Both the position numbers and the translations under genes were made by a program. This document shows, piece after piece, positions 2,495 to 28,647 of a stretch of DNA of 31,656 nucleotides. The stretch is from a virus. The notes beneath the pieces are model-generated. The model saw only the letters and a program-made list of their open reading frames with translations. It did no database searches and was not told the origin of the DNA. The number at the start of each line of letters is the position of its first letter. The stretch's first letter is position 1. The stretch spans positions 1 to 31,656 of IMG/VR virus record IMGVR_UViG_3300042507_005026; one strand, written 5' to 3'.

Positions 2495-2537
2495 CCGGGC
2501 CGAGCAGGGTACACGCACGGGCAGCGACGAGGTGCCT

Positions 2538-3245
2538 GTGCGTGTGCTGGTCAGTGGTGGAGGTGGACGGCTGGGGCGGCTGCTCGTGCCGTGGCTACGC
2601 GAGCACGGGCACGAGGTACTGGCACCGACCCGCGCGGAGCTGGACTGGGCACGCCCGCTACAGGTAGCCTCCGCGCTCCACACACACGCACCAGACCGGG
2701 TGCTGGCGCTGGCGAGCTGGACGGACGTTGCCCGAGCACAGCACCAGCCCGGCGCGTGCGTGCGGGACACGGTGGTGACCGCCCAGCACGCCATCGACGC
2801 CGCTGCGTCAGCGCGCGTGCCGCTGCTGTACGTGAGCACCGACTACGTGCACGCTGTGCTGCGACAGGACGGCGCTGGCGTGTACGCAGCGGCGAAGCTG
2901 GTCGCCGAGCAGCTGGTGCTGCTCGCTGGCGGCTACGTGGCTCGCGTGGCGTTCACCACGCCCGAGCAGGTGGCTGGCTGGCAGTGGGCGAACGGCTACT
3001 CGCTTGCGAACCGCTGCTGGGTGGACGAGCTGGTGCCGATGCTCGGAACGTGGGCCTGCTACCCGGCGCACCAGCTGGAGCGGCTGGTGGAGCTGGGCGG
3101 CCCGCACCCGTGCACACCCGCTGACCTGCTGCGCCGCAGGCAGCCCGAGCACCCAGCACTCACGCGCATCGTGGCCTCTGCTGAAAGCGCCGTAGAGAGC
3201 GGGCTTCCGGTTCAGCCGCGCGACACGAGCTGGCGGCGACCGTAA
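2538..3245 (+). CDS. Short SDR, dTDP-4-dehydrorhamnose reductase (RmlD)-like
   Basis: This is an NAD(P)-binding extended short-chain dehydrogenase. The glycine motif SGGGGRLG lies at residues 6-13, STDYV at 100-104 is the usual active-site strand, and Y116-x-x-x-K120 is the catalytic pair. RmlD reduces dTDP-4-dehydrorhamnose in dTDP-rhamnose synthesis, and this fold also covers other 4-keto-sugar reductases. At 235 aa it is shorter than a typical RmlD (near 300 aa), mainly in the substrate domain. GTG at 2538 was preferred over GTG at 2532 because GAGG at 2529-2532 is correctly spaced. An RmlC-like cupin is encoded at 7743. RmlA and RmlB are not in the window, so the sugar substrate would come from the host. 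Confidence 0.7.
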   Translation: MRVLVSGGGGRLGRLLVPWLREHGHEVLAPTRAELDWARPLQVASALHTHAPDRVLALASWTDVARAQHQPGACVRDTVVTAQHAIDAAASARVPLLYVSTDYVHAVLRQDGAGVYAAAKLVAEQLVLLAGGYVARVAFTTPEQVAGWQWANGYSLANRCWVDELVPMLGTWACYPAHQLERLVELGGPHPCTPADLLRRRQPEHPALTRIVASAESAVESGLPVQPRDTSWRRP

Positions 3246-3330
3246 CTTTTTCTGCGTGGTCGCCTTGCGCGTCTAACCGCCCTGCGGGTATAGGGTTTGC
3301 ACGGTGCCCGTGCGCCGTAGTCAGCAGCAA
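3243..3330 (+). promoter_or_regulatory. Cassette promoter P1 (TTGCGC + dyad + GTCAGCAG)
   Basis: TAACTTTTTCT at 3243-3253 is followed 11 bp later by TTGCGC (3265-3270). The dyad is TAACCG (3274-3279), 5 bp, CGGGTA (3285-3290), one mismatch from the consensus CGGTTA. TATAGG at 3289-3294 sits 18 bp after TTGCGC and is the best canonical -10 among the seven copies. GTCAGCAG is at 3320, 29 bp after the dyad instead of the usual 10. It drives the gene at 3350. Confidence 0.7.
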
Positions 3331-3349: not shown

Positions 3350-4435
3350 ATGAGCCTCACGCAGACCACCGACCGCCTCTCGTCCATCGCTTCCGGCCTC
3401 GCCTCGCTCGTGTGGTGGGAGTTCAACGGCACCGCCATCACGCCCGCCGACCTCCGCGTCCGCGTGGAGGCCGCTGGCCTCGACCCGGTGTCGGTCAAGG
3501 ACATCGACCCGACCGACGCGGTGCGCCGCGCCGTGCGCGAGTTCAAGGTCCACGAGGGCAAGCGCGTGACGATGGAAGCCGCCATCGCCCACGAGGACGA
3601 CAGCTTCATCGTCGTGAACCTGCTCACGCTGACCCAGCAGGCCCGCGAGCGCGTGGCCAAGCTGCCGACGGACGAGCTGGTCTGGGACAAGACGGCCCGT
3701 GCGTGGCACACCACCGGGCTGACGCAGGAGGCCGCTACCCTGCGCGCGAACGCGGGTGAGCTGGCGACCTACCTCGACGGGAACGCCGTGCGCGACCTGC
3801 TCGTGCAGCCCGCGCTGGAGCGCGCGAACAGCTTCACCCTGCGCCGTGGGATGCACGTCGTCCCGCACGCGACGTCGCAGCCCGTCGTGAACGCGCAGCG
3901 CGCCCTCGCCGGGCTGGACAGCTTCCGCGTGCAGGTGGCGCAGGTGCAGGCTGGACAGGGCTGGGAGCAGCCGCTGGCCGAGGCCAGCCGCGCCGAACTG
4001 CGGAACGACCTGCAGGAGCTGCAGGTGCAGATTGAGGGCTGGCGCGACATGGCCAAGCGCGTGCGCTCGGACACGCAGGAGCACGTGCTCGCCCGCTTCA
4101 GCTCCATCGCGCAGCGCGCCGCGCTGTACCGCGAGGCGCTGCAGGTGGCGGTGGAGGACATCGAGGCCGACGTCGCCGAGATGCAGGCGCTCGCCGAGGA
4201 CATCATCGCGGGCAAGGACGCCGAGGCCGACAGCCGTACCAGCACCCGCAAGGCCGAGCAGTCCACCAGTGCGCCCGCCACCACGCCGCAGCAGGCCCGC
4301 CGCGCCGCCCTGCGTGCCATGACCTCCGCGCAGCTGGGCACCCTGTGGGACGCGCTGGGCAGCGGCGAGCAGCCCGCTGACCGCGAGGCGCTGGTGGAGG
4401 CGCTGGCCACCGCGATGGAGGCGCAGGCCGCCTAA
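3350..4435 (+). CDS. Unknown protein ahead of MoxR/VWA genes, coiled coil in C-terminal half
   Basis: The 361-aa protein has an N-terminal region (1-150) of mixed fold and a long helical, Gln/Glu/Ala-rich segment (about 195-280) likely to form a coiled coil. A Ser/Thr/Ala linker (about 290-315) and a short helical end (to 361) follow. AAGGAG lies 9 bp before the ATG. Proteins of this general shape beside MoxR and VWA genes are known from phages and plasmids as domains of unknown function (DUF6744 came to mind, from memory and unverified). It has its own cassette promoter, as do the MoxR and VWA genes that follow, so the three are probably expressed together. No enzymatic motif was seen. Confidence 0.75.
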   Translation: MSLTQTTDRLSSIASGLASLVWWEFNGTAITPADLRVRVEAAGLDPVSVKDIDPTDAVRRAVREFKVHEGKRVTMEAAIAHEDDSFIVVNLLTLTQQARERVAKLPTDELVWDKTARAWHTTGLTQEAATLRANAGELATYLDGNAVRDLLVQPALERANSFTLRRGMHVVPHATSQPVVNAQRALAGLDSFRVQVAQVQAGQGWEQPLAEASRAELRNDLQELQVQIEGWRDMAKRVRSDTQEHVLARFSSIAQRAALYREALQVAVEDIEADVAEMQALAEDIIAGKDAEADSRTSTRKAEQSTSAPATTPQQARRAALRAMTSAQLGTLWDALGSGEQPADREALVEALATAMEAQAA

Positions 4436-4457
4436 CGGCAGCCGCGCTGCACGCGCC

Positions 4458-4501
4458 GGGCGGCGCGCTGGCCTCGGGCTGGCGCGCCGCCCTAACTTTT
4501 T
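4458..4501 (+). terminator. Probable intrinsic terminator between 3350 gene and MoxR gene
   Basis: A perfect 11-bp stem (4458-4468 with 4482-4492) around a 13-nt loop is followed by TAAC and five T (4497-4501). The same T run is the upstream box of cassette promoter P2, so terminator and promoter share bases. Confidence 0.65.
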
Positions 4502-4558
4502 CTCTCGCTTCTGCTTGCGCGTCTAACGGCTGCGCGGTTAGTGGAGACACGTCAGCAG
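4493..4558 (+). promoter_or_regulatory. Cassette promoter P2
   Basis: TAACTTTTTCT (4493-4503) is 11 bp upstream of TTGCGC (4515-4520), exactly as in P1. The dyad is TAACGG (4524-4529), 5 bp, CGGTTA (4535-4540). GTCAGCAG starts at 4551, 10 bp after the dyad. It precedes the MoxR ATPase gene. Confidence 0.75.
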
Positions 4559-4597
4559 GGCATCCCGCCCACCACCACCCGCAGGAGCAAGACCACA

Positions 4598-5740
4598 ATG
4601 ACCACCGCCGCTCTCGACCTCGCCACCGCCCGCGCGCAGCTCTCCACCCTCCGCACCCAGATGAAGGGCGCGTTCGTCGCCCGCGACGCCGAGATTGACG
4701 GGCTGCTGCTCGCGCTGCTGGCCCGCACGCACGTGCTCCTGCTCGGGCCTCCGGGCACCGCCAAGTCGCTGGTGACGCAGGTGTTCGCGGGCGCTCTCGG
4801 CGGCGACTACTTCCAGCGCCTGCTGACCGCGTTCACCGCGCCCGAGGAGCTGTTCGGCCCGTACGACCTCGCCGCGCTGGACGCGGGCCGCTACGAGCGC
4901 GCCGTGCAGGGCTACCTCCCGACCGCCACGGTCGCGTTCTGCGACGAGGTGTTCAAGGCGAACAGCGCCATCCTCAACAGCCTGCTCACGGTGCTCAACG
5001 AGCGCCAGTTCGACAACGGCACCGCACGCCTGCAGCTGCCGCTTGAGCTGTGCGTCGGCGCGAGCAACGAGTATCCGGAGGACGCCAGCTTGGAGGCGCT
5101 CTACGACCGCTTCACGCTGCGCTACTGGACCCAGTACGTGCCGACCCGCGCCGGGCGGCTCGCGCTGCTGACCGCCGCCGACCCGGCGAAGGCGGTGACC
5201 GCGAAGCTCGCGCCCGAGGCGGTGCAGGCGCTGCAGCAGGCGGTGCGCGACGTCGTGGTGCCGCAGGCGGTGCTGGAGCTGCTGTGCGACGTGGCCGACA
5301 AGCTGGCCAAGGACAACGGCATCACCGTGAGCGACCGCCGCCTGCGCGGGATGGTGCGGCTCCTGCAGGCGAGCGCCGCGCTGGACGGGCGCGACACGGC
5401 GACCGCCCGCGACCTGCTGGTGCTGGCCGACAGCGTGTGGCACCGCCACGAGCAGCGCCCTGCGGTGCTCGCCACGGTGATGGCCGTCGCCGCCCCGCAG
5501 CTCGCCGCTGCCACGAAGCTCGCCGACAGCGCCCGCGAGGTGTACGACGCGGTCAAGGACGTGCAGGGCGACGGCGCGCGCGCCCTGCAGCGCATCAAGG
5601 CTATCGAAGCCGAGCTGGCCGCCCTCGGGCTGGACGACGGCGACGTGGCCGCCTGCCACGCGCAGGTGACCGAGCTGCGGAAGGGGCTGGCCCGTCGGTT
5701 CATGGCCGCGAGCGGGCTGGGCGTCGGCCTCGCCGGGTAG
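4598..5740 (+). CDS. MoxR-type AAA+ ATPase
   Basis: The 380-aa protein shows a Walker A motif (GPPGTAKS, residues 50-57), Walker B (VAFCDE, 112-117), sensor-1 Asn in GASNEYP (N157) and the YDRF arginine (R171), followed by a helical lid. This is the MoxR/RavA/CbbQ class, which forms rings and usually works with a VWA partner to remodel or activate a target protein or insert a metal. The VWA protein is encoded next (5871). The ATG at 4598, with AGGAG 10 bp upstream, was chosen. A GTG at 4541 extends the frame but lies inside promoter P2. The 5' leader is very like that of the gene at 13061. The target in this phage is unknown. Confidence 0.9.
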   Translation: MTTAALDLATARAQLSTLRTQMKGAFVARDAEIDGLLLALLARTHVLLLGPPGTAKSLVTQVFAGALGGDYFQRLLTAFTAPEELFGPYDLAALDAGRYERAVQGYLPTATVAFCDEVFKANSAILNSLLTVLNERQFDNGTARLQLPLELCVGASNEYPEDASLEALYDRFTLRYWTQYVPTRAGRLALLTAADPAKAVTAKLAPEAVQALQQAVRDVVVPQAVLELLCDVADKLAKDNGITVSDRRLRGMVRLLQASAALDGRDTATARDLLVLADSVWHRHEQRPAVLATVMAVAAPQLAAATKLADSAREVYDAVKDVQGDGARALQRIKAIEAELAALGLDDGDVAACHAQVTELRKGLARRFMAASGLGVGLAG

Positions 5741-5760
5741 CCGCTCGGCGGTGCGCCGCC

Positions 5761-5801
5761 GCGCGCCTGCGCCAGTCGGTGCGGGCGCGCGTGCTTTTTT
5801 T
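5761..5801 (+). terminator. Intrinsic terminator after MoxR gene
   Basis: A 13-bp stem (5761-5773 with 5778-5790, two G-U pairs in RNA) with a 4-nt loop is followed by GTGC and seven T (5795-5801). The T run merges into the upstream box of promoter P3. Confidence 0.8.
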
Positions 5802-5862
5802 CTCACGGCGACCTTGCGCGAGTAACCGTGGCGCGGTTACCGGGTAACCGTCAGCAGCAAGG
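5795..5862 (+). promoter_or_regulatory. Cassette promoter P3, with extra palindrome
   Basis: A T run ending in TCT (to 5803) is 10 bp before TTGCGC (5814-5819). The dyad is TAACCG (5823-5828), 5 bp, CGGTTA (5834-5839). A second, overlapping 15-bp perfect palindrome GGTTACC-G-GGTAACC (5835-5849) adds another half-site. GTCAGCAG starts at 5850, and the AAGGAG of the VWA gene follows at once. Confidence 0.75.
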
Positions 5863-5870
5863 AGCATCCG

Positions 5871-7340
5871 ATGAGCGCAGCCTACACCACCGCCCGCCAC
5901 ACCGACGCCACCCGCGCCGTTTCGCGCTGGGCCGACTACCTGTTCACCACCCGCGAGGCCGCGAGCACCGCGCTGCGCGGCGCGCGCTACGAGCTGGGCA
6001 GCGCGTACCGCGCGCACGCCAAGAGCGCCGACGCCGCCGAGGCGCGCCGCATGGACGCGCTGGCCACCGCGACCGCGCGCGAGGTCTTCGCGGGCCTGTA
6101 CGACGCCGAGGAAGCCGCCGCGCTGGAGAAGCCCGCGCCCGACACCGAGCTGGTCGCCCGCGTCCACGCGCAGCTGCAGGGGCTGCCCGAGTACGCGCAG
6201 CTGCAGGCGCAGGTGGCGGGCGACCCCGACCTCGCCGCGCTGGCTGCCGCCCAGCTGCTGCGCGGCGTTGCGGGCGCGCTCCCGCAGGTCGCGGAGCAGG
6301 AGCGCCAGCAGGCCCAGCAGTCCGCGCAGGGGCGCGCCCAGCGCGGCCCGGCTGCCGACCCCGACGGCGCGATGCGCCGCGCCCTGCGCGCGGCCTGTGG
6401 CGATGCCGCGCAGGCCGCCGCCGAGGCCGCTGACGGGATGGAGGGTCTGGCTCCCGGCCTCGGCGGCACGCCCGCCCAGCACGAGCAGGACGGCACCGCG
6501 CGCATGGCGCTGGCCGAGCGCGTGAGCAGCGATGCCCGCCTGCGCCGCGTGATGAAGCTGGCTGGCCGCCTGCGCCGCCTCGCCAGCGACGGGCGCAAGG
6601 TGCGCGACGAGCTGGGCGCGGACACGCTCGTGGGCACCACCATCGGCGGCGACCTGCCGCGCGCCCTGCCCACCGAGCTGGGCCTGCTGCGCCACCCGCG
6701 CCTGCGCCGCGTGCAGCTCGCCAAGCTCGCTGACCGTCGGCTCCAGCAGTACCACGTCGTCGGGCAGGTTCCGAAGGGTCGCGGCCCGGTGGTCGTGCTG
6801 CTGGACGAGAGCGGTTCGATGGAGGGCGAGCGCAACCTGTGGGCTGCTGCGGTGGCGCTCGCCTGTCTCGGCACCGCCGCCCGCGAGCGCCGCGCCTGCA
6901 CGGTCATCGGGTTCAACGGCGCGGTGCGCTACGTCGTGCGGCTGGACGCGCAGGGGCGCGCGTGGCGGCACGAGCCGCGCAACGTGGCGCAGTCCACGGC
7001 GATGGGCGGCTGCGCCGAGGTGGCCCTGCACGTGGCCAGCAGCCGCCCCGATGGCGGCACCCAGTTCGCGCCGCCGCTGCTGGCCGCGCTGGAGCTGGAG
7101 GACGGCGTGACCCGCGAGCGCGCCGACCTCGTGCTGGTGACCGACGGCCACGCCGAGGCACCCACCAGCGTGATGGAGCGCCTGCAGGCCGCCAAGCGCG
7201 ACGGGCTGCGCGTGTTCGGTCTGACGGTCGGAGGCGGGAGCCTCGGTCACGCGGTGCAGCAGCTCGCCGACCACTGCGTGGACCTCGACGCCGCCAGCGG
7301 GCGCGACGACGGCAAGGAGGTGGCGGGTGCCATCCCGTAG
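5871..7340 (+). CDS. VWA-domain (MIDAS) protein, partner of MoxR ATPase
   Basis: The 489-aa protein has a helical, Ala/Gln-rich N-terminal two thirds and a C-terminal von Willebrand A domain from about residue 300. All MIDAS elements are present: D312-x-S314-x-S316 (DESGSM), T397 in GGTQF and D425 in VTDGHA. These bind a divalent metal and form a protein-docking site. The combination of MoxR ATPase and VWA protein with a long helical N-terminus resembles CobS/CobT-like pairs. AAGGAG lies 6 bp before the ATG. The next small gene overlaps its end by 14 bp, so the two are translationally coupled. Substrate and role in infection are unknown. Confidence 0.88.
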   Translation: MSAAYTTARHTDATRAVSRWADYLFTTREAASTALRGARYELGSAYRAHAKSADAAEARRMDALATATAREVFAGLYDAEEAAALEKPAPDTELVARVHAQLQGLPEYAQLQAQVAGDPDLAALAAAQLLRGVAGALPQVAEQERQQAQQSAQGRAQRGPAADPDGAMRRALRAACGDAAQAAAEAADGMEGLAPGLGGTPAQHEQDGTARMALAERVSSDARLRRVMKLAGRLRRLASDGRKVRDELGADTLVGTTIGGDLPRALPTELGLLRHPRLRRVQLAKLADRRLQQYHVVGQVPKGRGPVVVLLDESGSMEGERNLWAAAVALACLGTAARERRACTVIGFNGAVRYVVRLDAQGRAWRHEPRNVAQSTAMGGCAEVALHVASSRPDGGTQFAPPLLAALELEDGVTRERADLVLVTDGHAEAPTSVMERLQAAKRDGLRVFGLTVGGGSLGHAVQQLADHCVDLDAASGRDDGKEVAGAIP

Positions 7341-7746
7341 CGGGCGCGGCCCGGTGCCGCAGCATCCCGTGGCGGTCACCGCACAGGTGCTGGCCGCCTG
7401 TGCCCGGCTGGAGGCGCTGGCGGGCTGGTGGCCGCCTGCGGGCGGGCTGGTGGAGGGCGCGCGCCTCGCGCTGGCTGGAGAGGGCGGGCTGGACGCCGCC
7501 CAGCTCCAGCGGCTGGTGCTGTGGTCGCGCCGCTGGGCGGCGCTGGACCCGCGCCTGCGCGAGCTGTACGCGCGCCACCCGGCACAGGGCGCGGTGGACG
7601 CCGCCCTGTGGCACGTGCTGGAGCAGCGCGACGGACAGGCCAGCGGCGCGGTGTACGGCACCCTGCGCGACCTGTGGACGCGCCTGTACGGCTACGCGCC
7701 CAGCATCGAGCTTCTGCCCCGCATCACACTGGAGGACCACGCATGA
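7327..7746 (+). CDS. Small protein of unknown function, coupled to VWA gene
   Basis: The 139-aa product starts at GTG 7327, 6 bp after AAGGAGG (7314-7320), inside the end of the VWA gene. Its stop overlaps the ATG of the following cupin gene (ATGA). It looks helical and Ala/Leu/Trp-rich, with no metal or nucleotide motif and no membrane segment. Tight coupling on both sides makes it a real gene of the P3 transcript. It may be an accessory of the MoxR/VWA module, but only position supports this. Confidence 0.7.
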   Translation: MPSRSGRGPVPQHPVAVTAQVLAACARLEALAGWWPPAGGLVEGARLALAGEGGLDAAQLQRLVLWSRRWAALDPRLRELYARHPAQGAVDAALWHVLEQRDGQASGAVYGTLRDLWTRLYGYAPSIELLPRITLEDHA

Positions 7747-8378
7747 CCGACACCGACGCAACCGCCGCGCTGTACGCCGCACAGGGCTACGTTCGCTGGG
7801 CGACCGTACCCCAACCGCCCCCAGCGCCCCCATCGCGCCCTGTGGGCCGCTACGGGCCGGGAAACGCGCACCCGGTGCAGGTACGCGGACTGCGCTGGCA
7901 CACGGACGCCCGAGGCGGGCTGGTGGAGGTGCACCGCCGCAGCTGGCACGGCGACCTGCGGCCCGACGACGCAGCCCCCACACCCGGCGAGGTCGCGCAG
8001 GTGTACGTCAGCACCACCGCCGAGGGCGTGGTCAAGGGCTGGCACCTGCACGCACGGCAGAGCGACCGCTTCACGGTGCTGCGTGGGTCCATCGTGCTGG
8101 GCCTGTACGACCTGCTCGCGCATCAGAACGCCATCCGTCTGGGCGAGGCACTGCCGCCAGTCCACGAGCTGGTGCTGCACGCCGAGAGGAACCCGTCACA
8201 GGTGGTCGTGCCGCCCGGCTGGGCACACGGTTGGATGGCACTGCCCGGCTACGGAGAGGCGCACGTGCTCAACGCGGTGTCGCACGAGTACGACGGCACC
8301 GACGAGTGGCGCAGGGACGCGCACGCTGGTCCGTGCGCTGGCGTTCATCACGAGTGGCGTCGTAGCCGCGACGGGTAG
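7743..8378 (+). CDS. RmlC-like cupin (dTDP-4-dehydrorhamnose 3,5-epimerase-related)
   Basis: The 211-aa protein has the RmlC pattern: a KGWHLHARQSDRF segment (98-110, H101 and H103) followed by a glycine turn and strand (LRGSIVLGLYDL), then VVVPPGWAHGWMAL (154-167), which matches the PxGFAHG-type motif of sugar epimerases. A loop with SHEYDGTDEWR follows. RmlC inverts C3 and C5 of the 4-keto sugar, and relatives act as 4-keto-sugar isomerases. The ATG overlaps the preceding stop (ATGA), so it is translated with the small gene before it. The RmlD-like reductase at 2538 could supply the next step. The substrate cannot be read from sequence. Confidence 0.75.
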   Translation: MTDTDATAALYAAQGYVRWATVPQPPPAPPSRPVGRYGPGNAHPVQVRGLRWHTDARGGLVEVHRRSWHGDLRPDDAAPTPGEVAQVYVSTTAEGVVKGWHLHARQSDRFTVLRGSIVLGLYDLLAHQNAIRLGEALPPVHELVLHAERNPSQVVVPPGWAHGWMALPGYGEAHVLNAVSHEYDGTDEWRRDAHAGPCAGVHHEWRRSRDG

Positions 8379-8449: not shown

Positions 8450-8932
8450 ATGACCGAGCAGAACGACAACGCCGCCGCGTGGGGCTGGGTGCTCCAGCAC
8501 GCGCAGGTGGTACGGTGTGCCGCGTGGCGCATGGCCAGCGGCACAGGGTTGGACGCGGACGACCTGCACAGCAGCCTGCTGGTGCGCCTCGTGGAGCGGT
8601 GGCGCAGCTACGACGCGAGCACCAGCGCCCCGAGCACGTGGGTCTGGTGGCAGGCGCGCGCGGTGCGTTCGGCGATGATCGACCACCGCCGCAGGCGGCT
8701 GGACGAGGTGGAGCTGACCGACGCCGCACACCCGGTCGCACACCCGGTCGCCGAGGCGCGCGTGATGGTGCGCGAGGCCGAGCGCATGGCCGAGCCGGGC
8801 GAGTGGCAGGCCGCTGTGGCCTACGCGGATGGACTAGTGGGTGACGAGCTGGGCGAGGCGTGCGGCTGTGCTCCGTTCAGCGCCCGACGACGTGTGGCGC
8901 GCCTGCGAGCGCGCATCGAGGAGGCAGCATGA
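8450..8932 (+). CDS. Sigma-70/ECF-like RNA polymerase sigma factor
   Basis: The 160-aa protein has a recognisable sigma region 2 at about residues 17-83. An acidic DADDLHSSLLVRLVERW segment is followed by a WVWWQARAVRSAMIDHRRRR stretch, which corresponds to the core-binding and -10-recognition helices ending in the basic run typical of ECF sigmas. The C-terminal part (126-158) could form a region-4-like HTH but is weak. GAGGAGGA is 4-5 bp before the ATG. It is the first gene of a coupled trio (HTH protein, RecU-like) and lies behind a copy of the cassette promoter. It may direct host polymerase to those promoters, which is an inference. A degenerate sigma-like DNA-binding protein is the alternative. 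Confidence 0.7.
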   Translation: MTEQNDNAAAWGWVLQHAQVVRCAAWRMASGTGLDADDLHSSLLVRLVERWRSYDASTSAPSTWVWWQARAVRSAMIDHRRRRLDEVELTDAAHPVAHPVAEARVMVREAERMAEPGEWQAAVAYADGLVGDELGEACGCAPFSARRRVARLRARIEEAA

Positions 8933-12972: not shown

Positions 12973-13020
12973 TCTGGACGCTAACCGCCCGACGGTTAGT
13001 AAGGGGTGTCAGCAGCAAGG
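12973..13020 (+). promoter_or_regulatory. Cassette promoter P5 (no clear -35)
   Basis: A perfect dyad TAACCG (12982-12987), 5 bp, CGGTTA (12993-12998) is followed 9 bp later by GTCAGCAG (from 13008). Where TTGCGC stands in other copies the sequence is TCTGGA, and there is an A run instead of a T run upstream. It precedes the gene at 13061. Confidence 0.6.
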
Positions 13021-13060: not shown

Positions 13061-13666
13061 ATGACCACCACCACCTTCGCCACCGCCTCCCTCGCCGACA
13101 TCCGTTCCTTCCTCGCCGCGAACAACGCGGAGGCGGGCCTCGCCAGCGTGATGAAGTTCGACGGCTGGAAGATGGCCGACGCGCGCGGCTACGCCGACCG
13201 CGTGCAGGCGCTCCGCGAGGCGGGCTTCACCGCCGCCATCACGCCGCGCACGGTGGCCGCCGCCGAGCAGCAGGTTGCCGACGAGCGCGCCGCCGCCGAG
13301 GCCGAGCGCGTGGCCGCCGAGGCCGCGACCGCCGCCGAGCTGCTCGCGATGGTCGAGGCGCAGGTCGCGCGCTCCACGAGCAAGCGCGCCCGCAAGCCCG
13401 CCAAGGCCGACGGGGAGGCCAGCGGCAACCGCGTGCGCGTGTCGTCGCTCGCCGACGCGCTCCGCGCCCTGCTTGCCGAGAAGCCCGTCGTCGTGCTCAC
13501 CGTCGCCGACCGCATGGCGATGGGCCTGTCCTCCAGCGCGGTCAACCACCGCGCGTACTGGGCACCCTGCAACCCCGGTGGCAAGGCGGCGGCGGCCATC
13601 GGTGCGAAGGTGAGCAGCGCCAAGGCCGACGACGGGTTCAACGTCGTGATCAGCGCCGCCGCGTAG
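13061..13666 (+). CDS. Unknown 201-aa protein of the cassette regulon
   Basis: The N-terminal 60 residues look globular, the middle (about 65-105) is an Ala/Glu-rich helix, a basic linker follows (SKRARKPAK), and the C-terminal 80 residues look like a second small domain ending in a strand. No motif was recognised. The 5' leader and first codons (CAGGAGCAAGAC..ACAATGACCACC) nearly repeat those of the MoxR gene at 4598. Together with promoter P5 this suggests co-regulation or a duplicated leader. A terminator follows. It may belong with the MoxR/VWA group, but this is only inferred from shared control. Confidence 0.7.
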   Translation: MTTTTFATASLADIRSFLAANNAEAGLASVMKFDGWKMADARGYADRVQALREAGFTAAITPRTVAAAEQQVADERAAAEAERVAAEAATAAELLAMVEAQVARSTSKRARKPAKADGEASGNRVRVSSLADALRALLAEKPVVVLTVADRMAMGLSSSAVNHRAYWAPCNPGGKAAAAIGAKVSSAKADDGFNVVISAAA

Positions 13667-19945: not shown

Positions 19946-20260
19946 ATGAACGAAGGCAAGGTCGAGACAACGCGGTTCGCAGTCGTGATGAACATGGTCG
20001 TGGACGCGCTGTGGAGCGCACTGGCGCTGTCGGTCGGCGGCTTCCTCGTCGCCGTGGTGGTGTATGCGTTCGTCATGCCCGACCCGGCGATGGAGGAGAG
20101 CGGTGCGCGCGGGTACGCAGCGATGATGGAGCGGCTGGAGGACGAGCAGATGCAGTGCGAGGCGCAGATGCTGCACGATGTGCGCCTGTACCGCGCGCCG
20201 ACGCAGGCCGACGTGGACGAGGTGCACGCTGCGTGCGACCGCACGAGCGCGTGGCGCTGA
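19946..20260 (+). CDS. Small membrane protein of unknown function
   Basis: The 104-aa protein has one long hydrophobic stretch (about residues 12-44), which could be one long or two short TM helices, then an acidic helical tail with two Cys. GAGGAGG lies 4-5 bp before the ATG. It is the only gene of its transcript, with the cassette promoter before it and a hairpin plus another promoter after it. A membrane protein under early-type control could act in host takeover or superinfection exclusion; nothing in the sequence decides. Confidence 0.7.
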   Translation: MNEGKVETTRFAVVMNMVVDALWSALALSVGGFLVAVVVYAFVMPDPAMEESGARGYAAMMERLEDEQMQCEAQMLHDVRLYRAPTQADVDEVHAACDRTSAWR

Positions 20261-20368: not shown

Positions 20369-21109
20369 ATGGCCCGCAGCACTACGAGCACCAGCACCCG
20401 CACCCGCGCCGTCGCGTACCTGCGCGTGAGCACCGACAAGCAAGCCGACCTCGGGGTGAGCCTCGACGCACAGCGCGCGAAGGTGCAGCTCTACGCAGAG
20501 CTGTACGACGTGGAGCTGGTGGAGGTGGTGGTGGACGCAGGGGCCAGCGCCAAGACGCTGGAGCGCGAAGGGCTGCAGCGCGCGCTGGCCATGCTGGACA
20601 GCGGCAAGGCCGACGCCCTGCTGGTGGCCAAGCTGGACCGTCTCACGCGCAGCGTGCGCGACCTCGGCGAGCTGCTGGACGGCTGGTTCGGGCGCAAGGA
20701 CGGCCCGGCGCTGCTGTCGGTGCAGGAGCAGGTGGACACCCGCACCGCAGGCGGTCGGCTCGTGCTGAACGTGCTGATGTCCGTCGCGCAGTGGGAGCGC
20801 GAAACCATCGGCGAGCGCACCAGCGCGGCCATGGCGCACATGAAGGCCGAGGGCGCGTACACGGGCGGGCGTGCACCCTACGGGTGGCAGGCCGACGCCG
20901 AGGGCCAGCTGCACCCGGTGGCTGCGGAGCAGGCCGCCATAGTGCTGGCGCAGCAGCTCCACGCCGAGGGCAACAGCCTGCGCGGTGTAGGTGCGCTGCT
21001 CGCCGAGGCAGGCCACCTGCCGCGCAGCGGCGGCACGTGGCACGCCAGCAGCGTGCGCGTGGTGCTGGCAGCCCGGCTGGCAGGCACAGCGCAGCACGTT
21101 GCGGCGTAG
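20369..21109 (+). CDS. Serine recombinase (resolvase/invertase-type), short
   Basis: The 246-aa protein has the serine-recombinase catalytic domain: YLRVSTDKQ (R19, nucleophile S21), an AKLDRLTRS segment (88-95) with active-site arginines, and the WERETIGERTSAAM E-helix (142-155). After it only about 90 residues remain: a GRAPYGWQ segment and an HTH-like end (NSLRGVGALLAEAGHLPRSGGTWHASSV). It is longer than classic resolvases but far shorter than large serine integrases (450 aa or more), so it is either a resolvase/invertase or a minimal integrase. AGGAG precedes the ATG. It lies under promoter P7 and about 0.7 kb from the repeat-rich region at 21780-22260, a possible target. Confidence 0.85.
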   Translation: MARSTTSTSTRTRAVAYLRVSTDKQADLGVSLDAQRAKVQLYAELYDVELVEVVVDAGASAKTLEREGLQRALAMLDSGKADALLVAKLDRLTRSVRDLGELLDGWFGRKDGPALLSVQEQVDTRTAGGRLVLNVLMSVAQWERETIGERTSAAMAHMKAEGAYTGGRAPYGWQADAEGQLHPVAAEQAAIVLAQQLHAEGNSLRGVGALLAEAGHLPRSGGTWHASSVRVVLAARLAGTAQHVAA

Positions 21110-23783: not shown

Positions 23784-24500
23784 GTGCCCACCGCTGAACT
23801 GAACCTCTCCACCGTGGCACTGGCCGACCTACGCCCCGACCCGGCCAACCCTCGCACGCACGACGCGCGCAACCTCGCCGCCATCGCCGCAAGCCTCCGC
23901 GAGCACGGACAGGTGGAGCCACTGCTGGTACAGCAGTCCACGATGATGGTCATCGGCGGCAACGGGCGCGCCGAGGCCATGCGCTCGCTGGGATGGAAGC
24001 AGGCCCGCGTGGCGCTGCTCGACGTCAGCGACACCGAGGCCCGCAAGCTCTCCATCGCGCTGAACCGCACGGGCGAGCTGGCTGGCTGGGACGAGGCAGT
24101 GCTGGCTCGCCACCTGTCCGAGCTGTCCGAGCTGGACGGCGCGTTCGATGTGGAGGGTCTGGGCTTCACGGGTGCTGAACTGGACGCGCTGGTGGCGGCC
24201 TACGTCGCGGTGGAGCCGACGCCGCCGCCCGTAGCCCCGCAGCCGACGGCACAGGGAACCGCCAGCGGTGTGACCGCTGGTGCGGGTGCTGGTGTGTCCA
24301 TCGGAGGGGCGTTGCCGCCCGGCACCGCGCCTGCGCCCATGCCGACCAGCGCGGTCAAGGTCGTCCAGCTGTTCCTCAACGACGAAACCATGGACCCGTT
24401 TCAGATGGCTGTCCGCAAGCTGGCAGAGCAGTACGGAACGGACAATATCACCGACACCGTGCTGCGCGCGGTGCTCACCGAGGCTGGCGAATGGCGCTGA
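23784..24500 (+). CDS. ParB/Srx-like domain protein
   Basis: The 238-aa protein starts at GTG 23784, 6 bp after GGAG. Residues 8-115 form a ParB-N/sulfiredoxin-like domain: VALADLRPDPANPRTHD, a helix with SLREHGQVEPLLVQ and the GGNGRAEAM motif (58-66), then LNRTGELAGWDEAVLARHLSEL. In phages such domains are found in DNA-modification and nuclease proteins as well as partition proteins. After a Pro/Gly/Ala linker (143-195) comes a short helical C-terminal domain. There is no helix-turn-helix typical of full ParB. queE overlaps its end by 10 bp, which ties it to the deazaguanine genes; a DNA-targeting or NTP-binding role there is inferred. Confidence 0.75.
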   Translation: MPTAELNLSTVALADLRPDPANPRTHDARNLAAIAASLREHGQVEPLLVQQSTMMVIGGNGRAEAMRSLGWKQARVALLDVSDTEARKLSIALNRTGELAGWDEAVLARHLSELSELDGAFDVEGLGFTGAELDALVAAYVAVEPTPPPVAPQPTAQGTASGVTAGAGAGVSIGGALPPGTAPAPMPTSAVKVVQLFLNDETMDPFQMAVRKLAEQYGTDNITDTVLRAVLTEAGEWR

Positions 24501-25153
24501 ACGTCCGCGAGGTGTTCGCCACCATGCAAGGCGAGGGCAGCATGGCGGGTGCGCCTGCTGTGTTCGTGCGGCTGTCGGGATGCAACCTGTGGAGCGGGCT
24601 GGCCCACCTGCGCCACGCAGGCACCGGAGCCTGTGCCGAGTGGTGTGACACCGACTTCGCAAAGGGTACACGCTACGAGCCGGGCGAGGTCGCGGACACC
24701 GTGCTGCGACTGTGCGACGGTTGGGCACGTCCATTCGTGGTCGTGTCCGGAGGCGAACCATGCCTCCAGCTCCGCACAGCAGGCGGCGAGGTGCTGGTGC
24801 GCTTGCTCCAGCAGGCAGGCGTGGCCGTGGCCGTAGAAACCAACGGGACAGTCGAGGCCGATGTGCTTGCCGACTTGCAGCACGTGACGGTCAGCCCCAA
24901 GGCACTACGCGCACCCGGCGAGGACGCACTGGCGCACGTTCGCGTTCGCACTGGCACCGACCTCAAAGTCGTTGCCCCGCAGTGGGGGCATGACGAGCTG
25001 GACCGCATGAACGAGTGGGCGTTCACCCACCGTTACGTCCAGCCGCTGGACACCGGAACTGGTCCCGGCGCGGTGCAGCCCGCGCTGGCGCTGGCGGCGC
25101 GCCTTGGCTGGCGCGTGTCGGCGCAGGTTCACAAGCTGCTGGAGCTACCATGA
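24491..25153 (+). CDS. queE: QueE, 7-carboxy-7-deazaguanine synthase (radical SAM)
   Basis: The 220-aa protein turns 6-carboxytetrahydropterin into 7-carboxy-7-deazaguanine, the ring-contracting step of preQ0 synthesis. Family features seen: FATMQGEGSMAGAPAVFVRLSGCNLW at the start (shown in part), CDTDF after the cluster, GGEP at 86-89 and ETNG at 115-118. The cluster cysteines are C31, C48 and C52, a CX16CX3C spacing. The X3 between the last two is unusual, since a CX2C end is the common form. The ATG lies inside the ParB-like gene, with GAGG upstream, and its stop overlaps folE (ATGA). Identity is clear; activity with this spacing is the only doubt. Confidence 0.92.
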   Translation: MALNVREVFATMQGEGSMAGAPAVFVRLSGCNLWSGLAHLRHAGTGACAEWCDTDFAKGTRYEPGEVADTVLRLCDGWARPFVVVSGGEPCLQLRTAGGEVLVRLLQQAGVAVAVETNGTVEADVLADLQHVTVSPKALRAPGEDALAHVRVRTGTDLKVVAPQWGHDELDRMNEWAFTHRYVQPLDTGTGPGAVQPALALAARLGWRVSAQVHKLLELP

Positions 25154-25746
25154 CAACGGATAAGGCAGCCGCCGCCGAGGCGGTGCGGGCGCTCCTCGCG
25201 GCGCTTGGCGAGGACACGGAGCGCGAGGGGCTACACGGCACGCCCGCACGGGTGGCCAAGGCGTGGCTTGAAATGCTCGCCGGGATGCACCTGCAGCCCG
25301 CCGATGTGCTGCGTACCAGTACGGGCGGCGCTGGGTTCTCCGACGTCGGTGGGTTCGACCAGATGGTCGTGCTGTCCGACATCCCGTTCCACAGCGTGTG
25401 CGAACACCACATGCTGCCGTTCAGCGGGTTCGCGGACGTTGGCTACCTGCCGGGCGACAGCGGGTTGGTGGTGGGCGTGAGCAAGCTCGCGCGCCTCGTG
25501 GACCTGTACGCGCGCCGCCTGCAGGTGCAGGAGCGCATGACGCAGCAGGTAGCACAGGCGCTCCACGACCACCTACAGGCGCGCGGCGTCGGTGTGCGGG
25601 TGCGTGGCGTCCACCACTGCATGAGCTGCCGTGGCGTCCGCAAGTCGGGCACGATGGCGACCGAGGTTCTGTTAGGCGCGTTCCGTGACCATGCGGTACG
25701 CGCCGAGTTCTGGCAGCTGTGTGAGCCGCTGCCGAGGGGGGCATGA
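25150..25746 (+). CDS. folE: FolE, GTP cyclohydrolase I
   Basis: The 198-aa protein makes dihydroneopterin triphosphate from GTP, the first step of the pathway. HSVCEHHMLPF (81-91) supplies zinc ligands C84 and H87, and HHCMSCRGV (155-163) supplies the third Cys and nearby catalytic residues. GLHGTPARVAKAW and SKLARLVDLYARRLQVQERMT are family signatures (the second shown in part). Length is normal for type IA enzymes. Start and stop both overlap neighbours (ATGA with queE, ATGA with queD), so the four que genes are made in step. Confidence 0.95.
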   Translation: MTTDKAAAAEAVRALLAALGEDTEREGLHGTPARVAKAWLEMLAGMHLQPADVLRTSTGGAGFSDVGGFDQMVVLSDIPFHSVCEHHMLPFSGFADVGYLPGDSGLVVGVSKLARLVDLYARRLQVQERMTQQVAQALHDHLQARGVGVRVRGVHHCMSCRGVRKSGTMATEVLLGAFRDHAVRAEFWQLCEPLPRGA

Positions 25747-26177
25747 TGGACACGACCGCGACCCGCATCTTCGGGATTGACGTTGGGCACCGGGTGATGC
25801 GCCACGAGAGCAAGTGCGCGCACGTGCACGGCCACCGCTACGGCATCGAGGTGACCTGCGCGGCACCCGCGTTGGATACCGTGGGGCGTGTGATTGACTT
25901 TGGCGTGGTCAAGGAGGTGGTCGGCAGCTGGCTGGACGACAACCTCGACCACGGCTACGCGCACCACCCCGACGACCCGGTGGGCGCGTACCTGCTGGCA
26001 CAGGGACAGCGCACGTTCGCCATGCCCGCCCAGTACGGTGAGCCAACAGCCGAGAACATCGCCCGGCTGGTTGGACACACCGCAGGCGAGCTGCTGGCTC
26101 CACACGGCATCACGGTCACGCACGTTCGCGTGTACGAAACGCCCAACTGCTGGGCAGACTGGCGTAAGGAGGTCTGA
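25743..26177 (+). CDS. queD: QueD, 6-carboxytetrahydropterin synthase
   Basis: The 144-aa protein converts dihydroneopterin triphosphate to 6-carboxytetrahydropterin. Zinc ligands H16, H29 and H31 and catalytic C25 are seen in GHRVMRHESKCAHVHGH; IDFG (51-54), the D69-H70 pair in LDHGY, E104 in PTAEN and E132 in YETPN complete the active site. Start is ATG 25743, or ATG 25746, both overlapping the folE stop, with GAGGGG upstream. Its stop overlaps queC (TGATG). Confidence 0.94.
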   Translation: MMDTTATRIFGIDVGHRVMRHESKCAHVHGHRYGIEVTCAAPALDTVGRVIDFGVVKEVVGSWLDDNLDHGYAHHPDDPVGAYLLAQGQRTFAMPAQYGEPTAENIARLVGHTAGELLAPHGITVTHVRVYETPNCWADWRKEV

Positions 26178-26890
26178 TGTCACAGCTGAACGGAAAGACG
26201 GTGGTGCTGCTGCTCTCGGGTGGGCAGGACAGCACGACCTGCCTGTTCTGGGCGCTCGCCAACGGAGCCAGCAAGGTCCACGCGCTGTCGGTGTGGTACG
26301 GGCAACGGCATGACGCGGAGCTGCGTGCTGCGTCGGCGGTGTTGGCCGTCGCCCGCGAGCACTACCCCGAGGCCGAGCTGCACCACGAGCAACTGGCCAT
26401 TGGCAACGTGCTGTCCAGCACCAGCCCGCTGGTGAGCAGCGCGCCGCTGGGCCAGTACGCCAGCGCCGAGGAACTGCCGGGCGGCGTGGAGCCGACGTTC
26501 GTGCCGGGTCGCAATCTCCTGTTCCTCACGCTGGCAGCGAACCGCGCAGCGGCGGTGCGCGCCGACGCGCTCGTGACAGGCGTGTGCGAGGAGGACTTCG
26601 GAGGGTACTACGACTGCAGGCGCGCGTTCGTGGACGCGACCGAGCGTGCTGTGGCGCAGGGGTTCGTTGGGTCAGACGAGTGGCTGCCCATTCTGACGCC
26701 GCTGATGAAGCTGGACAAGGCGGCCAGCGTGCGCTTGGCAGTGGAGCTGCCCGGCTGCATGGACGCGCTGGCGGTGAGCCACACCTGCTACGCAGGCGAG
26801 AACCCGCCCTGCGGCAAGTGTCACGCCTGCCACCTGCGGCAGCGTGGCTTCGCGCAGGCAGGCGTGGCCGACCCTCTCGTTGGGCGGTGA
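26177..26890 (+). CDS. queC: QueC, 7-cyano-7-deazaguanine (preQ0) synthase
   Basis: The 237-aa protein makes preQ0 from 7-carboxy-7-deazaguanine with ATP and ammonia. It has the PP-loop SGGQDS (14-19) and the C-terminal zinc site C204, C212, C215, C218 (CYAGENPPCGKCHAC). AAGGAGG stands 4 bp before the ATG, the strongest ribosome site in the que run. No QueF is present, so the expected end product is preQ0, with the QueC intermediate ADG as the alternative. The first DpdA-like gene begins 3 bp after its stop. Confidence 0.95.
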   Translation: MSQLNGKTVVLLLSGGQDSTTCLFWALANGASKVHALSVWYGQRHDAELRAASAVLAVAREHYPEAELHHEQLAIGNVLSSTSPLVSSAPLGQYASAEELPGGVEPTFVPGRNLLFLTLAANRAAAVRADALVTGVCEEDFGGYYDCRRAFVDATERAVAQGFVGSDEWLPILTPLMKLDKAASVRLAVELPGCMDALAVSHTCYAGENPPCGKCHACHLRQRGFAQAGVADPLVGR

Positions 26891-26893
26891 CCG

Positions 26894-27754
26894 ATGTTCA
26901 AGGCAGCAACGCTGGTGTCGTACCACGGGATGCGCGAGCAAGGGTTCGATGCTTGGTGGAGGCTGCAGGGCGCGTACCCCGACATAGAGGTGGTGCTGGA
27001 CAGTGGAGCGTTCAGCGCCGCCAACACGGGCGTGCCCATCGGCGTGCTGGAGTACGGCAGATTCGTGCGCCAGTACGGCGGTCGGTTCAAGTGGTGCGCC
27101 AACCTCGACGTGATTGGCGACCCGCAGGCCAGCTACAGACAGTGGCGGGCGCTCCAAGACCTGTCCGGAGGCCAGCTTGTGCCTGTCCTCCACTACGGTT
27201 CTGACCACCGTTGGATTGAACGCTACGCCAGCGACGGCGCTCCGCGCATGGCGTTTGGCGGCCTCGTGCCCCACATGGCCAAGCTGGCGCACGCCCGGCC
27301 CGACTGCCCTGTGACCAAGTGGGTGAGTGGCGCGTGGGAGGTTGCCAAGCAGGCTGGGTTGGTCGTCCACGGGTTCGGCGTGGCCAGTCCACGCATCATC
27401 GCCGCCTACCCGTGGGAGAGCTGCGACAGCAGCTCGGCGCACCACTACGCGCGCCGACGACAGAACTGGATACTCGACAGCAACGGCAAGCGCGTGCGGC
27501 TGGACAGCCAAACGGGCGGCCTGTCCGCTGACGAACTGAACATGATGGACAGGTTCGAGGTTCAGTACGTGGAGGGAGTTCACGGCAAGTACGGGATGGC
27601 GCGCGGCAAGCGGCTGACCTCGGTGGCTACGTCCATGCTCCAGTCGGTGGAGCTGGTCGGCTACCCAAGCGGGTTCGTGATGATGTTCGCGCTGCCCAAC
27701 GCGGCTGAACGGCACGTACTGTTCGACGTGAGCCGGGCTTGGAACGCCCGATGA
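26894..27754 (+). CDS. dpdA: DpdA-like DNA 7-deazaguanine transglycosylase, copy A
   Basis: The 286-aa protein has the tRNA-guanine-transglycosylase-type TIM barrel pattern of phage DpdA enzymes, which exchange guanine in DNA for a 7-deazaguanine base. LDSGAF (35-40, D36) matches the general-acid Asp motif, LDVIGD is at 71-76, and HGFGVASP (159-166) followed by YPWESCDSS carries D178, which aligns with the nucleophile Asp. No CXCXXC zinc motif is seen, unlike tRNA TGT. The start is 3 bp after queC with only a weak ribosome site, suggesting coupled translation. A paralogue follows with ATGA overlap. Family assignment rests on motif order and on the que genes beside it. Confidence 0.85.
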   Translation: MFKAATLVSYHGMREQGFDAWWRLQGAYPDIEVVLDSGAFSAANTGVPIGVLEYGRFVRQYGGRFKWCANLDVIGDPQASYRQWRALQDLSGGQLVPVLHYGSDHRWIERYASDGAPRMAFGGLVPHMAKLAHARPDCPVTKWVSGAWEVAKQAGLVVHGFGVASPRIIAAYPWESCDSSSAHHYARRRQNWILDSNGKRVRLDSQTGGLSADELNMMDRFEVQYVEGVHGKYGMARGKRLTSVATSMLQSVELVGYPSGFVMMFALPNAAERHVLFDVSRAWNAR

Positions 27755-28647
27755 ACGTGGGATGGCTGACGAGTTACTGGCACGTTCGTACCGACCCAGT
27801 GGACTGGCAGAAGACGCTGGAGCTGACGCGCCACGGCGTGAGTGTCGTTGTGGACAGCGGAGCGTTCACAGCCAAGTCGCTGGGTACACCCATCAGCCTG
27901 CTGGCCTACCAGCGGTGGCTCCAGCCCCGCCTGCGCTCGGTGAACGGTTGGGCGGCATCGCTCGACGTCATTGGTGACCACAGCGGCACCATGGCTAACT
28001 ACCGGGCCATGGCGTCTGCGGGCTGTGTTGGTGTGGTTCCCACCGTTCACTTCGGAGCGCCAGCCGACTACGTGGACGTCTACGCCGACCTCGGGGCGCA
28101 ACGCATCGCGGTGGGCGGCATCGCTGGGATGATGGTGCGCGGTCGCCCGTGCCTTGACGACAGCCAAGCTGGACAGCTCACACGCTGGCTGACCGCTGTT
28201 CACGGTAGGTTGGAGGCCCGTGGCATCAAGTCACATGGGTTCGGCGTGAACGCCCCGCAGTGGGCGAAGGCGTACCCGTGGGATTCGGTGGACGGCACCA
28301 GCTTCGCGTCGGGCGCGAGGTATCGCAACCTGCCCATCTACCGCAACGGAAAGATGACATGGCGGCAGCTGCGCGACGTGACCGACGAGGAGGCGACCTA
28401 CCTCGCAAGCATTGGTGGCGACGTGTCTCGGATGAACGACGCTTTCGTGACTGTGAAGGGGCAGGGCCAGCGACAGTGGCGCACGCTGATTGAGCTTGGG
28501 ATGGTCGCGGTGGTCCAATCCCTGCTGGAGCAAGCGCCGCACATTCGCACCCTCTACGTCAGCGAGTGGAGCATGACCGACCTCGTGCGCGGCATCATCC
28601 TCGACTGGAGCGACAACGGCTACCCGTGGCTGCGTGCGCGCGGGTAG
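27751..28647 (+). CDS. dpdA: DpdA-like DNA 7-deazaguanine transglycosylase, copy B
   Basis: The 298-aa protein is a diverged paralogue of copy A. VDSGAF (34-39, D35), LDVIGD (71-76), VHFG around H100 and SHGFGVNAP with YPWDSVD (D181) line up with D36, LDVIGD, H100 and D178 of copy A. Both putative catalytic Asp are kept, so it is not an obviously dead copy. The C-terminal third differs most, with a longer helical part after residue 190. ATG 27751 overlaps the stop of copy A (ATGA), so the two are made at a fixed ratio, as expected for a heterodimer or for two enzymes with different sequence targets. Confidence 0.83.
   Translation: MNVGWLTSYWHVRTDPVDWQKTLELTRHGVSVVVDSGAFTAKSLGTPISLLAYQRWLQPRLRSVNGWAASLDVIGDHSGTMANYRAMASAGCVGVVPTVHFGAPADYVDVYADLGAQRIAVGGIAGMMVRGRPCLDDSQAGQLTRWLTAVHGRLEARGIKSHGFGVNAPQWAKAYPWDSVDGTSFASGARYRNLPIYRNGKMTWRQLRDVTDEEATYLASIGGDVSRMNDAFVTVKGQGQRQWRTLIELGMVAVVQSLLEQAPHIRTLYVSEWSMTDLVRGIILDWSDNGYPWLRARG

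Follow-up and report, generated by a model that had tools for sequence, protein, structure and literature searches.

Gene arrangement at the locus

The window analysed in this study, meaning the whole stretch of 31,656 bases, was an IMG/VR virus record for which no DNA-level relative was found in the phage collection. Genes for a DUF6744-like protein, a MoxR ATPase and a VWA protein, referred to here as the trio, spanned positions 3350–7340. A sequence-only reading of this DNA had described open reading frames at 3350, 4598, 5871 and 7327 as a module, and the ORF list and translations confirmed all four. The range it gave (3350–8378) also held a fifth gene at 7743–8378, encoding an RmlC-like cupin of the dTDP-sugar epimerase family (PF00908, E 2.2e-8), which we regarded as a downstream passenger. 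The trio, the two genes behind it, the gene at 13061 and the motif copies described with them all lie on the plus strand. Sugar genes stood on both sides of the trio, the cupin gene on one and an RmlD-like gene (2532–3245) on the other. Elsewhere in the window, positions 24491–28647 held an apparent preQ0 pathway (QueE-like, GTP cyclohydrolase I, QueD/PTPS and QueC) and, behind it, two TGT-like genes (PHROG 887) that overlap each other, a combination that suggests 7-deazaguanine DNA modification; que genes were present in halovirus HVTV-1 as well.

The gene at 4598–5740 encoded a RavA-like MoxR AAA+ ATPase of 380 aa with the features of that family: Walker A (GPPGTAKS), Walker B (D116/E117), sensor 1, sensor 2 and AAA_lid_8. 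It matched PF20030 (E 3.6e-59), AAA_lid_8 and the RavA structure 3nbx (E 1.7e-81), and it passed the cut-off of the Pfam bpMoxR family (199.7 bits against 27). Its match to the NCBIfam RavA family (E 4.8e-64) scored 217 bits and did not reach the equivalog cut-off of 681. Because the RavA alignment stopped near residue 341 of 380, the protein was taken to be without a LARA domain. Across 27 relatives, K56, E117, N157, R171 and R247 were invariant, and D116 was conserved in 96%.

The VWA protein (489 aa, 5871–7340) carried a complete MIDAS (D312-S314-S316...T397...D425); in 50 proteins D312 was conserved in 100%, and S314, S316, T397 and D425 in more than 95%. It was ViaA-like in that ViaA was the closest family, at 47.4 bits against an equivalog cut-off of 500. 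The architecture comprised a helical N-terminal half (residues 1–242 in the model), a conserved segment at 250–300 and a C-terminal VWA domain, with no beta-propeller fused. NorD in NorQD was the second-ranked Foldseek match of the model (E 2.2e-5). The domain matches and conserved residues thus bore out what had been read from the sequence, a MoxR AAA+ ATPase next to a MIDAS-complete VWA protein.

The partner that had been left without a family (361 aa, 3350–4435) can be placed as a divergent relative of Pfam DUF6744. Its match to PF20529 (E 5.6e-5, 22.7 bits) covered only the first third of the profile and fell under the gathering cut-off of 27, and for that reason the protein was named "DUF6744-like". 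It could be aligned over its full length with established DUF6744 proteins, which share the motif R...GG.YFVP, with R148, G167 and V171 found in at least 90% of 51 sequences; the window protein departs from the motif by R166 where the first G is expected. Its AlphaFold model (pLDDT 90.8) consisted of an N-terminal alpha/beta region (approximately 9–200), a helical hairpin (206–306) and extra C-terminal helices (313–360). The model matched L7TK87 of HVTV-1 (Foldseek E 5.9e-10), which at 383 aa has the length of HVTV1_25 and was therefore equated with it; HVTV1_25 is itself a PF20529 protein (E 3e-19). This fold match was not fully independent, because DUF6744 sequences sat in the modelling alignment. 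The MoxR/VWA genes of Moorella phage MTATph1 had, three small genes upstream, a gene whose product matched DUF6744 strongly (E 5.6e-61).

Among solved structures, DUF6744 had no sequence match below E 0.01, and the DUF6744-like fold had no match in the PDB with E < 0.001. CorA and other helical hairpins were rejected as fold kin, their scores being at the level usual for helical bundles. Viral contigs searched with the MTATph1 protein as bait returned no match, and ten aligned DUF6744 proteins diverged too far for use as a search query. No mention of DUF6744 was found in the literature searched.

A shared promoter-like motif

The three genes were preceded by a common layout, TTGCGC-n-TAACCG-n5-CGGTTA...GTCAGCAG. 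The palindrome TAAC[CG]G-n-CGGTTA, counted with at most one mismatch, occurred six times in the window (at 3274, 4524, 5823, 12982, 19885 and 20325), while 0.07 copies were expected from first-order Markov sequences. Promoter/operator-like copies lay 5' of the DUF6744-like gene (3265–3290, TTGCGCGTCTAACCGCCCTGCGGGTA), of moxR (4515–4540) and of the VWA gene (5814–5839), and a further palindromic copy (12982–12998) lay 5' of the gene at 13061. The distances from motif to start were 76, 74, 48 and 79 nt, respectively. The remaining two copies preceded genes at 19946 and 20369, the latter (20369–21109) encoding a serine recombinase/integrase-like protein under the same motif as the trio. Most copies had a TTGCGC-like box on their 5' side and GTCAGCAG on their 3' side. 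In the nearest relatives the motif, at times degenerate, stood 5' of most of the same genes, with mismatches rising with distance.

From sequence alone, we infer that the motif acts as a promoter for the trio genes. Because each gene has its own copy, the three appeared to be co-regulated and not to form one operon; a single operon for the three main genes was ruled out on the same ground. A sigma-70 region 2 protein encoded at 8450–8932, with a degenerate TTGCGCG motif upstream, could be the reader of these shared promoters.

The claim that all four genes of the module are under the same control was right in substance, with a motif copy before each of the DUF6744-like, MoxR and VWA genes. The fourth gene, at 7327–7746, encodes a 139-aa protein with no family assigned. 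This gene has a GTG start and a 14 nt overlap with the VWA stop, and neither it nor the cupin gene, both downstream of the VWA gene, has a motif copy of its own. Its product was lineage-specific, occurring in near relatives and one more distant phage only, and in two viral loci (L003 and L004) its homologue lay approximately 4 kb away from the VWA gene. We rejected it as a core part because of this limited spread, and the small coupled protein was dropped from the module. The gene at 13061–13666, which encodes a 201-aa protein with no family assigned, did share the promoter motif, as had been noticed from its leader; it was found in close relatives only and was rejected as a further part of the core, leaving it a co-regulated gene.

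Co-occurrence of the three families

Reciprocal searches were performed with either MoxR or DUF6744 as the sole bait, so that the other two families were never used to fetch a locus. MoxR retrieved 22 viral loci, 19 of them divergent (L021–L039); in these divergent loci VWA was present in 19/19 and DUF6744 in 16/19, leaving three with a MoxR/VWA pair and no DUF6744. With DUF6744 as bait, both partners were found in 10 of the 11 plasmid loci examined and at 37 of 47 loci on genome contigs, with one partner at five more. Neither partner was present at the last five, and the exceptions were mostly short contigs; for L074 and a Subdoligranulum plasmid, the genome or record encoded a strong MoxR relative at another site. 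HVTV-1 had a divergent MoxR/VWA pair, to which its DUF6744 gene, approximately 15 kb away, was unlinked. Aphanizomenon phage CL131 (L013, 758–1600) had MoxR and VWA genes with DUF6744 not nearby; immediately upstream was a gene for an LPD29-domain protein, and downstream one for DnaN.

Complete trios lay on a single strand, within a span of approximately 7.5 kb, in three gene orders. All-against-all clustering of neighbouring ORFs, from which antisense shadow frames of the trio genes were set aside, yielded no further family in more than eight loci. Family searches found DUF6744 in 17 of 300 Bacilli and 4 of 297 Actinomycetes genomes, and a partner adjoined it at nearly all of the loci examined. 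Tree distances were correlated at 0.86 (DUF6744–MoxR), 0.88 (DUF6744–VWA) and 0.87 (MoxR–VWA), against a permutation maximum of 0.19; DUF6744 is therefore as closely co-inherited with the pair as MoxR is with VWA, although this congruence stems partly from the shared descent of the elements. Every near-relative contig spanning the region kept the trio. The sequence-only reading had named absence of co-occurrence in other genomes as grounds for giving up the module, and what we found was near-obligate co-occurrence of the three families far beyond this phage. DUF6744, MoxR and VWA form a closed module that is real and widespread. Its parts are of known kinds, and as far as the literature was searched, it is undescribed as a trio.

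Carriers and gene neighbourhoods

Carriers of the trio ranged from tailed phages and conjugative plasmids to an ICE-like locus, some chromosomes of Bacilli and contigs of Archaeoglobales, the last with all three families present. A 79-kb sibling of the window (L003/G002) was a tailed phage. Conjugative plasmids of Nocardia farcinica, Alicyclobacillus acidoterrestris and Pseudanabaena combined the trio with T4SS genes, and no virion genes were annotated in their gene tables, which were incomplete; for the Pseudanabaena plasmid this covers all but 50 kb. One Bacilli locus (G049) had a T4SS coupling protein within approximately 20 kb. These carriers bear on a role as virion assembly chaperone, as proposed for Acidianus two-tailed virus (ATV) and jumbo phages; PMC7824862 cites ATV p618/p892 and proposes an assembly role for the jumbo phages. 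Since the trio is present on conjugative plasmids without annotated virion genes, and on chromosomes too, its general role is unlikely to be virion maturation. In addition, the window trio adjoins replication genes, and in the sibling phage it lies on the opposite strand to terminase, portal and tape measure. We consider this explanation very improbable. Of the clients first listed (virion, host enzyme or defence complex), the virion is thus disfavoured as a general one.

In several Bacilli the trio lay on chromosomes among genes such as PEPCK, MFS, ResB and a UPF0004 radical SAM protein, with chromosomal neighbours seen in G333, G315 and G264, and the idea that it is confined to mobile elements was rejected. 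These trios among ordinary genes are not predicted by a replication role for mobile elements; they make a purely element-specific role less likely and leave room for a conflict hypothesis. Under that hypothesis, the trio would dismantle or restrain a complex belonging to a host defence or a competitor, or would be a new class of MoxR-vWA ternary conflict system. The range of carriers, from phages and plasmids to an ICE-like locus and variable sites in chromosomes, is usual for conflict genes, and other MoxR-vWA ternary systems have been proposed as such (PMC7159879). However, no effector domain was fused to any trio protein among the members scanned, and no window protein matched a PADLOC model, the only PADLOC matches being two weak, partial ones to plasmid homologues. 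Retention of the trio in all near-relative contigs spanning the region is also unlike swappable defence cargo, and its genes have separate promoter-like copies instead of forming a single cassette. A conflict or anti-defence function is, in our estimation, unlikely, but it is the chief alternative to the reading that we favour.

Neighbours at several loci included an SNF2 helicase, SSB, a DnaG-type zinc ribbon, a DUF6094 methyltransferase, DnaN, SMC/RecN-like proteins, RadC and Sak4. Such neighbours, of DNA replication and repair, may only mirror the early region of large elements, and on these raw counts a replication client is a tendency, not an established result. The trio of two Paenibacillus loci (L057, 13906–16854; L065, 12595–16692) had RHS/DUF6531 and RCC1-repeat genes as neighbours.

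Neighbouring genes also bear on metalloenzyme maturation, such as the loading of ribonucleotide reductase with metal or cofactor. MoxR–VWA pairs serve nitric oxide reductase and CO dehydrogenase elsewhere (PMC13036017), and MTATph1 has a ribonucleotide reductase gene immediately 5' of its DUF6744 gene, while in HVTV-1 such a gene is close to DUF6744. The larger neighbour clusters, however, held no recurring reductase family, and no reductase was found among the window genes scanned, making this role quite improbable. The MTATph1 ribonucleotide reductase gene (L012, 1789–4140) contained an intein-like insertion.

A proposed remodelling machine

We propose, with about even confidence, that the trio constitutes one ATP-driven machine inside the cell, with DUF6744 as a dedicated third subunit and a nucleoprotein client slightly favoured. 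The direct support consisted of gene association, co-inheritance, active-site conservation, motif sharing and carriers without annotated virion genes; the physical complex, the division of labour, the mechanism and the client are what we infer. MoxR would form a RavA-type hexamer driven by ATP, and the VWA protein would be its ViaA-like adaptor. The DUF6744-like protein could be a substrate belonging to the module itself, but a targeting role, possibly in place of the absent LARA domain of RavA, is more likely. As in NorQD, ATP hydrolysis would turn the MIDAS-bearing VWA domain, and this rotation would remodel a client gripped by the VWA and DUF6744 proteins. The machine would work intracellularly and not in virion building, on something common to phages, conjugative plasmids and cells, with a nucleoprotein complex engaged in replication or recombination slightly favoured. 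A more specific version, in which the trio, as shared among phages, conjugative plasmids and integrated elements as well as some archaea, remodels a nucleoprotein complex of the host or the element that is required for the establishment of DNA in a new cell, is conceivable but doubtful.

Viral and plasmid MoxR–VWA pairs had previously been noted singly, with virion assembly as the proposed role. A fixed third partner and carriers without annotated virion genes replace a vague annotation with a defined complex that can be tested, and they direct the search for its client away from the virion.

Comparison with known systems

MoxR hexamers work with VWA adaptors, and in NorQD a VWA finger inserts in the pore while ATP hydrolysis turns the VWA domain (PMC13036017). 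The VWA model matched NorD and its MIDAS was complete; the correspondence with NorQ–NorD was limited to the VWA model, its helical N-terminal half excepted, and no NOR client was present. Compared with RavA–ViaA of E. coli, the MoxR core was closest to RavA and the VWA protein closest to ViaA, but both were far under the equivalog cut-offs, the LARA domain was absent and a third gene was added. Linked MoxR and VWA genes have been reported in viruses (PMC7824862, PMC2147016, PMC7911831), among them ATV (p618/p892), jumbo phages, haloviruses and phage 0305phi8-36, whose MoxR subunits are orf66 and orf63 (PMC2147016); the available text of these sources describes them as pairs and does not mention a DUF6744 partner. 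Genes of the pCAR1 ORF100–103 type, found on IncP-7, IncH and IncT plasmids and SXT/R391 (PMC2642839), are plasmid-borne MoxR and VWA genes like those of the trio plasmids, but their MoxR has a CbbQ-type C-terminal domain, unlike that of the trio. The known MoxR-vWA ternary systems (VMAP, iSTAND, FtsH and beta-propeller), proposed as conflict systems (PMC7159879), likewise combine MoxR and VWA with a third conserved component, and the MoxR described here passed the bpMoxR cut-off. In the trio, however, the third part was DUF6744-like, the VWA protein carried no propeller, no effector domains were found, and the module was common on phages and plasmids.
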